This document shows, in pieces, positions 21,012 to 61,546 of a DNA stretch of 62,063 bases. A program made the translations under genes and the position numbers. Under the pieces are notes generated by a model. That model worked only from the letters and a program-made list of their open reading frames with translations. It did no database searches and had not been told where the DNA came from. Position 1 is the first letter of the stretch. Each line of letters starts with the position of its first letter. The stretch comes from Ignavibacterium sp. (GTDB lineage Bacteria > Bacteroidota > Ignavibacteria > Ignavibacteriales > Ignavibacteriaceae): the NCBI GenBank assembly GCA_025056745.1, contig JANWVQ010000001.1:1-62063 (forward strand), written 5' to 3'.

Positions 21012-21282
21012 AATGCTTTATTTTATTTTATTTTATTGCAAAAATAATTATTCATACTTTTTAATTTAATTTTATAAAAGATTATTTTTAATTACGATGC
21101 TAAATATTTAATCGATTAATTTTAATCTATTGTTTTTGGTTAATAGATAGTCTTTCTTTGTAATTAATAGTCATTAGTCTTTTTATAAATAAATGATAGT
21201 TAATTCTTCAATTTTAATTATAAACCACATTCTCCATTCTACATTAAAAACAAATATATTTGTTGGAAAAAAATTTACTTCT

Positions 21283-22074
21283 ATGAACATAGCAGAAATT
21301 TGGTGGACGGTCAGTCCAGAGATTCTAAGATTGGGACCTATTTCAATTAGATGGTATGGACTTTTATTTGCCTTAGCTTTTGTTTTTGGATATATGATTA
21401 TGCAAAAAATTTACAAATCTGAAAAAAAGCCACTTGAGGACTTAGATAAACTTTCTATATATGTCGTTGTTGGAACAGTCGTTGGGGCAAGGCTTGGGCA
21501 TTGTTTTTTTTATGATCCACAATATTATTTGTTAAATCCTTTTGAGATAATTAAAGTGTGGCAAGGTGGATTAGCATCTCACGGAGCTGCAATCGGAATT
21601 TTATTTTCTCTTTATCTTTTTTCAAAAAAGGTTAAAGGTCAAAATCTGATTTGGATATTAGATCGCTTAGTAATTGTTATAGCACTTGGTGGAGCATTGA
21701 TTAGACTTGGAAATTTGTTTAATTCAGAAATTTATGGCAAACCAACAGATGTTTCCTGGGCTTTTATTTTTTTGAGAATTGATAACATTCCAAGACATCC
21801 AACTCAACTTTATGAAGCAACTTTCTATTTAATATCTTCTGTGATTTTATATCTGAACTACTTAAAAAATAAATCAGAACTAAAAGAAGGATTAAATTTC
21901 GGCTTGTTTTTAATACTGATTTTTGGATTTAGAATTTTTGTTGAGTTCTTCAAAGAGAATCAATCAGATTTTGAAGCAACTCTTCCATTGAATATGGGTC
22001 AATTGTTAAGTATTCCATTTGTTTTATTGGGTATTTACTTCTTGATTAGAAAGGTTAGCTTAAGAAAGAATTGA
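21283..22074 (+). CDS. lgt: Prolipoprotein diacylglyceryl transferase Lgt
   Basis: About 263 aa from the ATG at 21283; an in-frame ATG at 21193 would add 30 residues that look unlike the family, and neither start has a clear ribosome site. Lgt attaches diacylglycerol to the lipobox Cys of preprolipoproteins, many of which occur in this window. Motifs: GPISIRWYGLLFALAFVFGY, GTVVGARLGHCFFYDP, WQGGLASHGAAIG, the signature ALGGALIRLGNLFNSEIYG and RHPTQLYEA. Seven hydrophobic helices are evident. Its TGA stop overlaps the znuA ATG. Confidence 0.94.
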   Translation: MNIAEIWWTVSPEILRLGPISIRWYGLLFALAFVFGYMIMQKIYKSEKKPLEDLDKLSIYVVVGTVVGARLGHCFFYDPQYYLLNPFEIIKVWQGGLASHGAAIGILFSLYLFSKKVKGQNLIWILDRLVIVIALGGALIRLGNLFNSEIYGKPTDVSWAFIFLRIDNIPRHPTQLYEATFYLISSVILYLNYLKNKSELKEGLNFGLFLILIFGFRIFVEFFKENQSDFEATLPLNMGQLLSIPFVLLGIYFLIRKVSLRKN

Positions 22075-22974
22075 TGAAAAAATTTTTATTTGTTTTAGTA
22101 GCTTTCATATTTTTTTTATCTTGTCAAAAAAAAAAGTGATGATGTTGATATTGTTGTAACTATCTATCCATTCAAATTTATATTAGAAGAAATTACTAAA
22201 GATGAGCTTAAGATTGACGTTCTTTTACCCTCATCAGTTGATCCACACACTTATGAAATGGTTCCATCTGATTTAATAAAAGTTAAGAATGCAGAACTGT
22301 TTATTTATTGTGATAAAAATTTAGATGGGTGGGCAGCAATACTTGAAGCTAAACATAAAATTCAACTCTCTGATTATGTGCCTGATAGTTTAAGATTAGA
22401 TATTTCAGAACCAATAATTAACAATCTTTCTCATATTCACGATCACTCTTTGACTCATAATCACTTCGGTTTTGATCCACATTTTTGGACTGACCCAATT
22501 ACAGTAAGGGGAATGATAGATAACATCGTTAGTTTATTAATTTCGCATTTCCCAGACAAGAAAAATTTTTTTTCAGCAAATGTAGAGCAGTTCAAAAAAA
22601 AATTAACAGAGCTTGATAGTATCATTTCCGAAAAAACGAAGTCGATTGAAAACAAAAATATTTTTTCATCACATCCATTTTATAATTATTTCTTTCATAG
22701 ATATGGTTTTAACGTAATTGGATTTTTAGAAATATCACCCGGTCAAGTTTTGTCACCGAAAGATATGAAAATTATGATAGATTTTGTTAAACAAAATAAT
22801 GTAAAAGCAATTTTCACTAATAAACAACATAGCGACCGAACAACCAAAATTCTTGCTGAAGCTGTTGGTATTAATCATTATGATTTAGATCCAATTGGCG
22901 GTATAAATAATTTGAATGATTATGTTAGCATAATAAATTATAATCTTGAAATAATAACTAAAGCTTTGAAATGA
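22074..22974 (+). CDS. znuA: Zinc/manganese-binding lipoprotein ZnuA-like, frameshifted in an A10 run
   Basis: Read from the ATG at 22074, the gene gives a lipoprotein signal (MKKFLFVLVAFIFFLSCQKK) and then meets TGA at 22137, just after ten A (22126-22135). One base over, the frame continues without a break as SDDVDIVVTIYPFKFI and onward to 22974, giving a solute-binding protein of about 299 aa. With nine A the two halves join exactly. The body has DPHTYE and FDPHFWTDP (metal-binding His), a His-rich loop HIHDHSLTHNH typical of ZnuA, and SSHPFYNYFFHRYG. It heads znuA-znuC-znuB. The extra A may be a sequencing error, a real mutation, or a site rescued by slippage; an internal ATG at 22258 would lack the signal peptide and first strand. 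Confidence 0.87.
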
Positions 22975-23711
22975 AAAATGTAGTAGAGAGCAAGAATTTA
23001 TCATTTAGCTACAATGGTATATTGGCTCTATCAGATATAAATATTTCAATACCACAAGGAAAATTTGTTTCAATAGTAGGCCCAAATGGAGCAGGGAAAA
23101 CTACATTATTAAAAATTATTCTTGGTTTAATAAAAAATTATTCAGGCACCATAAAAGTATTTGATAAAAACCCAGATGAAGTTGATCCAGCTTTGATTGG
23201 ATATGTTCCACAATTCAAAACTATGGACAGGAAATTTCCTGCAATCGCAATTGAGTTAGTTGCTTCAGGCATTATAAGGAAATGGCCTTGGCGAATAAGA
23301 GGTAAATCAAAACAATTGGCCTACGAGGCTCTGTCGTTAGTTAAATCTGAACATCTTGCAGAGCGCTCATTATCATCTTTGTCTGGTGGAGAATTACAAA
23401 GAGTTTGTCTTGCAAGAAGTTTTGTCCGAAATCCAAAACTTATTGTTCTCGATGAACCAGCAACCGGAATTGATGCAATCGGAGAATCGGATCTTTATAA
23501 TCTGCTCGAAAATTATCAAAGTAAATCAGGTGCAACAGTTTTAATGATTACTCACGATTGGCACGTGGCACTTCACCATTCAGATTTAGTTTTATTATTA
23601 AACCGAAGACAAATTGCTTTTGCATCTCCAAAAGAAGCCTTGAGTGAAGATAATTTAAGAATTGCTTTTGGACATATCGGGCATCAGCACAACTTTAGGG
23701 GAGAAAACTGA
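22971..23711 (+). CDS. znuC: Zinc/manganese ABC transporter ATP-binding protein
   Basis: A 246-aa ATPase: Walker [10 protein letters not shown] (37-45), PQFKTMDRKFPAIAIE as Q-loop region of the metal-import class, signature LSSLSGGELQRVCLARSF, Walker B LIVLDEPATGID and switch His in MITHDWHVALHH. The His-containing tail (FGHIGHQHNF) is common in this subfamily. It overlaps znuA by 4 bases and znuB by 1, so the three are translationally linked. Confidence 0.94.
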   Translation: MKNVVESKNLSFSYNGILALSDINISIPQGKFVSIVGPNGAGKTTLLKIILGLIKNYSGTIKVFDKNPDEVDPALIGYVPQFKTMDRKFPAIAIELVASGIIRKWPWRIRGKSKQLAYEALSLVKSEHLAERSLSSLSGGELQRVCLARSFVRNPKLIVLDEPATGIDAIGESDLYNLLENYQSKSGATVLMITHDWHVALHHSDLVLLLNRRQIAFASPKEALSEDNLRIAFGHIGHQHNFRGEN

Positions 23712-24508
23712 TGTTGGAAATTTTTACTATTCCTTTTCTTCAAAGAGCTTTTATTGCTGGGGCACTGGTGGGATTTTTATCAAGTTATTTTGGAGTTTTT
23801 GTAGTTCAAAGAGGTATGGGATTTTTAGGCAGTGGATTAGCTCACGCTGCTTTTGGTGGAGTTGCAATTGGAATATTTTTGAATCAAGAGCCATTATTGT
23901 TTGCTATTCCTTTTACAATTCTTGTTGCGATTGCAATTACTTATGTTAAAGAGAAAACAAATTTAGCTGAGGACACAGCAATTGGAATATTCTTCTCTGT
24001 CTCGATGGCTTTAGGAATTATTTTTATCGCTTTGAAGAAAAATTATTCGAGCGATGCTTTTAATTATTTGTTCGGATCAATTTTAGCTGTTAATTACAAT
24101 GATATTCTGATTACATCATTACTTTCTTTAGTGACAATAATATTATTTCCATATTGGAAAAAATGGGCTTATTCATCATTCGATAGAGAGCTTGCTTATA
24201 CTGACAAAATAAAGGTTGTCTTTGATGATTATTTGTTAAATATTATGGTTGCAATAACAATAGTAGTTTCAATAAAGGTTGTAGGAATTGTTTTGATTGC
24301 TGCTTGTTTAGTCATTCCACCAGCTGCAGCTCGTTTAGTTTCTAAAACATTTTCAAAAATGACTGTTCTTTCTATTTTTTTAGGTGTTATTTCAACTTTT
24401 ATTGGAATAATATTTTCTTATTATTTAGACCTTCCCACCGGAGCTCTAATAATTTTACTTCAAGCAGTATTTTTCTTCTTTTTTATGTTAATAAAAAATA
24501 ATTCTTAG
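23711..24508 (+). CDS. znuB: Zinc/manganese ABC transporter permease
   Basis: A 265-aa membrane protein of the ABC-3 family with about eight hydrophobic helices. Family landmarks are QRAFIAGALVGFLSSYFGVFVVQRGMGF (abridged in the gene as a first helix), GSGLAHAAFGGVAIG, the segment VVGIVLIAACLVIPPAAARL and PTGALIILLQAVFF. Whether the substrate is Zn or Mn cannot be fixed from the permease; the His-rich loop in the binding protein favours Zn. Confidence 0.93.
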   Translation: MLEIFTIPFLQRAFIAGALVGFLSSYFGVFVVQRGMGFLGSGLAHAAFGGVAIGIFLNQEPLLFAIPFTILVAIAITYVKEKTNLAEDTAIGIFFSVSMALGIIFIALKKNYSSDAFNYLFGSILAVNYNDILITSLLSLVTIILFPYWKKWAYSSFDRELAYTDKIKVVFDDYLLNIMVAITIVVSIKVVGIVLIAACLVIPPAAARLVSKTFSKMTVLSIFLGVISTFIGIIFSYYLDLPTGALIILLQAVFFFFFMLIKNNS

Positions 24509-59384: not shown

Positions 59385-59404
59385 GTAAAAATTCTCATAC
59401 AGCC
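59363..59404 (-). terminator. Terminator for the minus-strand 54-aa gene
   Basis: GGCTGTTGAG (59376-59385) pairs with CTCATACAGCC (59394-59404) with one bulged base. On the minus strand it is followed by an almost pure T-run (complement of 59363-59375), so it acts toward the left, ending the minus-strand gene; it overlaps the last codons of ogt. On the plus strand no T-run follows. Confidence 0.8.
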
Positions 59405-59413
59405 CAGAAAAAA

Positions 59414-59578
59414 TTAATTAATCTCTGTAACTTTACTGATATCTGATATTTTGACAAACTTTTCGTTAAACTTGTAAGTACCTTTTTCGGTACCAACTGA
59501 TTTAACTACTTTAACCATAATAAAATCTTGTTTCTTCTTCGCTTTAGCTTTTTCTGCAAATGATTGTTGCTTTGCCAT
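59414..59578 (-). CDS. Conserved-looking small basic protein (54 aa)
   Basis: A 54-aa protein, MAKQQSFAEKAKAKKKQDFI onward, with a lysine-rich N-terminal third and a beta-like end (VKSVGTEKGTYKFNEKFVKI). A GGAG site precedes the ATG by six bases and a strong terminator follows its stop, so it is a real single-gene unit although short. It resembles short basic proteins of Ignavibacteria, but I cannot name the family; nucleic-acid binding is only a guess from charge. Confidence 0.75.
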   Translation of the reverse strand: MAKQQSFAEKAKAKKKQDFIMVKVVKSVGTEKGTYKFNEKFVKISDISKVTEIN

Positions 59579-60224
59579 TTTTTCTCCAAATTTATTGTTG
59601 CAAATATAATGTTAAATGGTTTAATTTGAAATTAGTATTAATCAAAAGCATTTTAATTTTCGGTTGCTGATTAATATACATTTAAGAGCTCCTTAACCAG
59701 TCTTTACTCTCTCATTAAAGCAATCTGTTTGTGTATTAAATCTCAAATAATTAAATAACTCAATTGTTTTTAATATGTCTATTCTTGTTATCAGTAATGT
59801 TAGTAATTGTTCAATAATTATTAATTTATCCAAATCTTTTGTAAATGAACTAAATGGATAATTAAATCATCATAACTTTGCTGTTCCTGATTTGTTAAAA
59901 GTTCTTCTTGAACTGTATCTCCACTGCTGTCTACTAATCATTTCGTTACCTTTTACATTTATGAATCTGTCGTCTATCACTAAACATTCTTCCCATCTCG
60001 GATTATAGTCTTCTTTAATTTGTTTACTGCTTTTTACATCTTCTATCAAAACTAACAGATGAAAGCTACCTTTGACAATTGAATTTTGTATTAAAACTAC
60101 AACAATTTGGACATCGAACTGAGCGCTTCCTTTTTGGTTGCATATCGAATTTCTCCATTATCAAGTGCACAAACTTGATAATTTCTGTAATTATTTATCC
60201 TATAGTATCTTACAGCTATTTTAG
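59579..60224. other. 646-base region without intact gene
   Basis: This gap holds the inverted-repeat-bounded segment and the possible decayed minus-strand gene described separately, and a perfect hairpin at 60157-60182. No tRNA, RNA gene or intact coding frame of over 60 residues with an ATG is seen. Confidence 0.6.
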
Positions 60225-60243
60225 CAACCGAAAAGTGTAACGC
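59648..60243. mobile_element. Possible small element bounded by 21-bp inverted repeats
   Basis: GCATTTTAATTTTCGGTTGCT (59648-59668, 17 of 21 bases matching) has its inverse complement at 60223-60243; the inner 12 bases, TTTTCGGTTGCT and AGCAACCGAAAA, match perfectly. The 550-base interior carries the decayed minus-strand frame. Terminal inverted repeats around a decayed gene fit an old insertion sequence or a MITE, but I see no target-site duplication, and the right repeat lies inside the start of the plus-strand decayed gene. Confidence 0.28.
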
Positions 60244-60288
60244 TTCCGATAAATATAACAAATATTCAAATAAATAGCCTTGGAAATG
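59693..60288 (-). pseudogene. Possible decayed minus-strand gene of unknown family
   Basis: One minus-strand frame (stop at 59693-59695) is open leftward from 60157 except for two adjacent TGA at 59867-59872: about 155 codons where 70 % A+T DNA would give around a dozen stops. A second frame from 60288 down to 60100 (63 codons, YLSEALHFSVAKIAVRYYRI) may be its continuation after a frameshift near 60130. Neither has a recognisable motif or clear start. It could be a transposase remnant, given the flanking inverted repeats. Confidence 0.3.
60157..60182. repeat. Perfect 10-bp-arm hairpin
   Basis: ATTATCAAGT (60157-60166) and ACTTGATAAT (60173-60182) are exact inverse complements around the loop GCACAA. 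No T-run follows, so it is not an ordinary terminator. It lies inside the inverted-repeat-bounded segment. Confidence 0.75.
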
Positions 60289-61546
60289 TCAAAATTCACT
60301 GTTCAAATGATTTTGGATTTAAAAACTTAGAAAATGCAAGTAAGGGTAGTTTTAATGGATTTCCAATAATAGTTGAAAGTATTTTATTAAAAAAAGAAAT
60401 AAACTATAAATTCAAAATTTTGGGAGACATTATTTGAGCTGATAACTAATCAAATGATCTGGAACGCCATTCAATGTATCATCTGAAATACCTTTAAATT
60501 TTAGAGGTAAGGATGCTTGTTATGAAAATAGTAATTTCAATAAATCTAATGTTAGTCAAATTCCTATAAAATTTAATAACAACACATCTGAATTTCTTGC
60601 TCATAGTAAGATATTAATAGGTAAAACAGACAACGGAAATGGATTCTCATATTGGTTTTTTGAAACAGGAGCTGAATTTACTCCTGCTATTTCAACAGGT
60701 TTCTTAGATATTGGCATAAGTGGATTCATTGGTAGGGTTTATTCAAAAATGAAACATTCAGGTAAAGGAATTTCTTCATCTGATTATATTCTGAACAAAT
60801 TTGGGGAGTATATACTAAATTGCCAATCTCCTCAATCTCAGAGAACGGGAAAAAATTTTTGGGTTATACAAATCTTAAAATTTTGGTTGGAGAAGGATCT
60901 ACTACAATTTTACTCAGTGAACTGCATCTTTTTGCATCAGGGTATAATAAAACTGATGGAAAGATTAAAGGTGAAGCAACAATTATTGTCAGTACTAAAC
61001 CGACTCTTTTCAGCACGGAGGCCAGTGTAGAAATGAATCTTTGGGGGGCTTTATGTGGAAATGCTAATCTCCTCGCTTATATTGATGATAAACAATGGTT
61101 TGTAAAAGTCGGGTCAAAAGAAAACTCCAATATTGTTAAAGTTCTATGCAGTAATGTTTATACATATAAAAATTATTTAGAAATAAATACAACAATAGCT
61201 TCGATGGGAATTTTTTATGACTTTGACACATAAACAGACTTGGGGAGAAGGATTTGGTTTTTATGGACACGCTTAGGGAAATATATCTTTCTTTGGATCT
61301 TTGAATTATCAAGACTTTAACGTATTTGCGAGTGCCTCCTTAGAAGCCCACGCAGTTATCGGTGTTTTCATTGATATTGAAGTTTGGTCAGGTGAAAAAA
61401 CTCTGTTAGAGGGACACGTCTATGCAAATTTGGAAGCTAATTTCCCTAATCCTTTATGCGTTGCAGGTTCTGTTAGTGCTGAATTATGTTTTTATCCTTG
61501 CCCATTTTTTGTTGTGAAATTTGTCCTAAAGCTTAATTTAAACTGA
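60225..61546 (+). pseudogene. Decayed large secreted/surface protein gene
   Basis: Protein-like sequence runs through all three plus frames: frame from 60225 (LPINITNIQINSLGNVKIHC), broken by TGA 60435 and TAA 60447; frame from 60458 (SGTPFNVSSEIPLNFRGKDA, later YWFFETGAEFTPAISTGFLD); frame from about 60785 (GYTNLKILVGEGSTTILLSE, LLAYIDDKQWFVKVG), ended by TAA 61231; and frame from 61229 (HKQTWGEGFGFYGHA), broken by TAG 61274, then SASLEAHAVIGVFIDIEVWS to a natural stop at 61546. So at least three frameshifts and three stops. The order of blocks recalls the C-terminal half of large beta-rich exported proteins of Bacteroidota (FEPNKWYIHIG-type). No sorting domain follows. Confidence 0.72.

Follow-up and report, generated by a model that had tools for sequence, protein, structure and literature searches.

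Long adenine runs are prone to slippage in bacteria generally, as the preliminary description of the DNA analyzed here had pointed out, and slippage of RNA polymerase has been documented at runs of nine to eleven A (A9-A11) (PMC1088944, PMC4256274, PMC5009743). At the A11 run of Citrobacter rodentium tssM1 it reaches ~20% (PMC4256274), and in endosymbiont genes 12-50% of transcripts are corrected (PMC5009743). When homopolymers slip in E. coli and Buchnera, a single base is inserted in most cases (PMC5574713). In this work we analyzed an A10 run at which the reading frame of znuA is broken in an Ignavibacterium genome. The gene lies within a stretch of 62,063 nucleotides, referred to as the window.

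Gene organization of the znu locus

The assembly holding the window is of the Ignavibacterium type, comprises 2.74 Mb in 185 contigs and is 99.8% complete. Its closest relative among the GTDB contigs searched is an uncultured Ignavibacterium metagenome-assembled genome; a search of viral contigs gave no match. The genes lgt, znuA, znuC and znuB follow one another in this order, with each overlapping the next (Table 1). The LGT domain, the ZnuA domain (PF01297), the ABC ATPase (PF00005) and the ABC-3 permease (PF00950) all scored above the cut-off, and the last three form one operon.

Table 1. Features of the znu locus (positions refer to the window)
Feature	Coordinates	Strand	Evidence	Remarks
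lgt, prolipoprotein diacylglyceryl transferase	21193..22074	+	ORF; Pfam LGT 244 bits	
lgt stop/znuA start overlap	22072-22074 (TGA of lgt)	+		TGA overlaps the ATG of znuA
znuA, 5′ frame	22074..22139	+	translation	lipoprotein signal with lipobox FLSC; stop after CQKKK
A10 run	22126..22135	+	sequence	site of the frame break; 1 base longer than in the 2 nearest relatives
ZnuA body, open frame	22102..22974	+	PF01297 match	match starts at 22150
A9 run, second long run within znuA	22594..22602	+	sequence	Lys-Lys-Lys, in frame
znuC, ABC ATPase	22971..23711	+	ORF; Pfam ABC_tran 105 bits	ATG overlaps the znuA stop (ATGA)
znuB, ABC-3 permease	23711..24508	+	ORF; Pfam ABC-3 241 bits	single copy in the genome

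Elsewhere in the window, a 1.4-kb segment (59385-60819) contains no ORF of at least 70 codons, no tRNA gene and no Rfam match. On its minus strand lies a short ORF (59414-59578; 54 aa), which presumably resembles a small conserved Bacteroidota protein.

Position of the frame break

The znuA frame that opens with the ATG at 22074 reads MKKFLFVLVAFIFFLSCQKKK and is ended by a TGA codon (22137-22139). The body of ZnuA is encoded in another frame than this signal and matches PF01297 end to end (215 bits, profile positions 1-263 of 263). The preliminary description had placed signal and body in separate frames, with the switch inside the A10 run, and translation and profile match agree with it on both points. 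The codon of the lipobox Cys (22122-22124) belongs to the first frame, whereas all sequence downstream of the run is in the body frame; the shift is therefore located in the A10 itself. A slip-prone run (A9 or longer) therefore sits exactly at the frame junction, between lipobox and body.

Other ways of joining or starting the two parts were considered. The body frame contains no ATG, GTG or TTG upstream of 22258, the position of its first in-frame ATG (and the end coordinate given in the preliminary description), so an alternative start for the ZnuA body was rejected. Re-initiation at the overlapping TGATG (22137-22141) yields MMLILL only, while slippage at a T8 run (22110-22117) would lose the lipobox Cys.

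Restoration of the frame takes a net loss of one base or a net gain of two. The gain of a single A, equivalent to a shift into the -1 frame, leads to a dead end, KKKVMMLILL followed by a stop. This bears on programmed ribosomal frameshifting at A AAA AAG TGA. A classical -1 slippery heptamer (A AAA AAG) does stand in frame just upstream of the stop, but shifting by -1 leads to the third frame rather than to that of ZnuA, for which +1 or -2 would be required; furthermore, the site is not conserved. A dnaX-type -1 event, giving the same dead end instead of a long product, was rejected, and we assign programmed frameshifting by the ribosome practically no probability.

Comparison with related genomes

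All ten orthologues examined, from five of five congeners and five further family members, are in frame without a break. A relative of ZnuA is detectable in 25 of the 80 family genomes, i.e. its distribution in the family is patchy, although every one of the six genus genomes has it. In G003 (71% protein identity) the site carries an A9 run, read in frame as CKKKED, while G005 (75% protein identity) has no long run there; neither the remaining congeners nor the more distant orthologues have a comparable run. The relatives also possess the lipoprotein signal and its Cys, in frame with the binding-protein body, whereas in the assembly the two are out of frame. From the Cys codon to a conserved GTTGA motif the window has 19 nt and both nearest relatives have 18 nt. 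The earlier proposal that znuA is broken by one extra A, and that nine A would restore the frame, thus holds, since the stretch is exactly one base longer than in both of them and the A10 occupies precisely the positions reported.

A shared break was sought in the genus, in the 80 family genomes and in the GTDB contigs, and was not found; nor was any clearly broken gene seen among the congener loci listed with runs of A10 or longer. As the relatives read in frame without it, the break is, in the sequences compared, private to the window genome. This makes a slip in an error-prone run, of recent or technical origin, the most likely reading, rather than an evolved switch.

The same comparison bears on phase variation, in which znuA would be a contingency locus switched by the length of the run. 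Poly-A tracts at the 5′ end are able to toggle genes, e.g. inlA (PMC2831843). However, the run is missing in G005 and the other congeners, bar the in-frame A9 of G003, and no family of such tracts was found among the 100 genomic runs of at least 9 A. We regard phase variation of znuA as very improbable.

Long adenine runs in the genome

Within the window, each added A cuts the count of A-runs by a factor of ~0.4 up to length 6, matching the prediction from dinucleotide content, but only 22 A8 matches were observed versus 87 expected. Exact runs in the 2.74 Mb genome number 708 for A8, 93 for A9 and 7 for A10, with none longer, i.e. count ratios of 0.13 (A8 to A9) and 0.075 (A9 to A10). Long A-runs are strongly depleted genome-wide and A10 is consequently rare; it is scarce in the congeners too. 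The depletion of runs of at least 8 A suggests, without proving it, that such runs carry a cost in this lineage.

Among the runs of at least 9 A, 73 of 100 are enclosed by an open frame of 90 codons or more. No frame break occurs at the other A10 runs in coding sequences or at the A9 runs that an ORF spans. The remaining runs were inspected for the signature of an interrupted gene, with a homology check that covered some of the gene boundaries, and znuA was the sole clear case. Since 73 of 100 are intact and znuA alone is clearly split, neither a generally faulty assembly of homopolymers nor habitual recoding fits the genome. Systematic homopolymer error, as in uncorrected long reads, was ruled out by these runs.

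An isolated error is another matter, and the tenth A may be absent from the cell. It could have arisen in sequencing, in assembly or in the consensus of mixed strains, the znuA of the cell being intact. Homopolymers are the usual site of such errors, the assembly is fragmented, the break is unique to this genome, and neither decay of the gene nor a substitute for it was detected. Against this, the other long A-runs are in frame, which would make the error a one-off (~1 in 75). We consider a technical origin a serious possibility, though one with somewhat less than an even chance.

Integrity of znuA and possible substitutes

In a relative-rate test, the dN of ZnuA to G003 was 0.188 for the window genome and 0.189 for the intact G005, and to G002 it was 0.407 and 0.405, respectively; with synonymous sites close to saturation, the information lies in this relative comparison alone. 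Rate comparisons of lgt with G005 were disregarded, their absurd dN being an alignment artefact, probably caused by an in-frame stop upstream of the start. No signs of a pseudogene were detected in znuA: there is no stop within the body, which evolves no faster than its intact sister. Its histidine motifs (DPH, DPHFW and SHPF), which form the metal site in this protein family, are retained and occur at, or close to, the aligned positions of such motifs in zinc-binding proteins of known structure. The view that the operon is otherwise intact was thus borne out, with ZnuA, ZnuC and ZnuB whole and the dN of znuA equal to that of its intact sister. There is no sign of decay, and a young, a technical or a rescued break would all look alike in this respect.

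The genome was searched for a second ZnuA (PF01297), a second ABC-3 permease and any ZIP transporter, and none was found. As the genome has one PF01297 gene, one ABC-3 permease and no gene for a ZIP transporter, the cell should suffer from a loss of znuA under zinc limitation, as far as substitutes of these three kinds are concerned.

Origin and consequences of the break

A break in a sound gene might be tolerated through maintained transcriptional slippage, the A10 being kept and RNA polymerase slippage giving a useful share of full-length ZnuA. This would agree with the slippage documented at A9-A11, with the conservation of the ZnuA body and with the depletion of long A-runs, which suggests that they are costly in this genome. 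However, the run is not conserved, as the split frame is absent from the ten orthologues and only G003 has the run, as an in-frame A9; no further gene is clearly split at a long run; and the commonest slip of the polymerase, the insertion of one A (PMC5574713), ends in KKKVMMLILL and a stop. This second dead end argues against programmed slippage. Conservation, and use of the commoner direction, are what one would expect of an evolved site; znuA shows neither, so that slippage maintained by selection is not supported and seems to us quite unlikely. Slightly less credit still is due to a leaky, slippage-dependent setting of the sole recognised zinc ABC importer in this free-living, A+T-rich Ignavibacterium, where the rate at which RNA polymerase miscounts ten A would determine how much ZnuA is made and, by way of coupling, how much ZnuC and ZnuB. 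The suggestion that slippage or phase variation is in use at znuA was therefore not upheld: the run is not conserved, no other gene is clearly split and the usual slip goes in the wrong direction. In our reading, the A10 of znuA has not evolved as a site of recoding or switching.

The explanation that we prefer, and to which we give about an even chance, is that an otherwise sound znuA has suffered a one-base slip, private and recent, in the run of lysine codons right after the lipobox Cys. Replication slippage in this slip-prone run would have added one A, recently and in one strain, and the break would be young or partly tolerated. A gene for which no substitute was found is, on the other hand, an unlikely site for a fixed null mutation. 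If the base is real, most transcripts would give a 21-residue lipoprotein stub, and slippage of RNA polymerase (or the ribosome) on the A10 may yield a minority of full-length ZnuA; such leaky rescue is possible. The coupled znuC and znuB would probably be expressed less, as early termination would leave ~830 nt untranslated upstream of znuC and weaken the coupling.

A real tenth A would add a case from beyond the endosymbionts to the known homopolymer indels in non-decaying genes, and would mean that ZnuA is missed by automatic annotation. A technical one would be a reminder to check single homopolymer frame breaks in metagenome-assembled genomes.

Comparison with known systems

The locus shares with ZnuABC zinc importers a full ZnuA domain, an ABC ATPase and an ABC-3 permease in one operon, but its binding protein is, in the assembly, out of frame with the lipoprotein signal. 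The event itself, a one-base slip at a homopolymer, is of a well-known kind. In C. rodentium tssM1 (PMC4256274) a stop also stands just past a long A-run (A11), with the remainder of the gene in another frame. Slippage was demonstrated there through the addition of bases to the run, whereas znuA, read from its sequence, needs a net change of -1 or +2. Listeria inlA (PMC2831843) likewise has a poly-A tract near the 5′ end where a frameshift leads to a very short product; its variation spans strains, while the znuA break occurs in one genome and is absent from relatives. The frameshifted homopolymer genes of Blochmannia and Buchnera (PMC3017870, PMC5009743) are also similar, with a single poly-A indel in an otherwise intact, non-decaying gene of an A+T-rich genome. 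Several genes are affected in those reduced genomes, compared with one in a genome of 2.7 Mb in which A-runs of at least 9 are strongly avoided.
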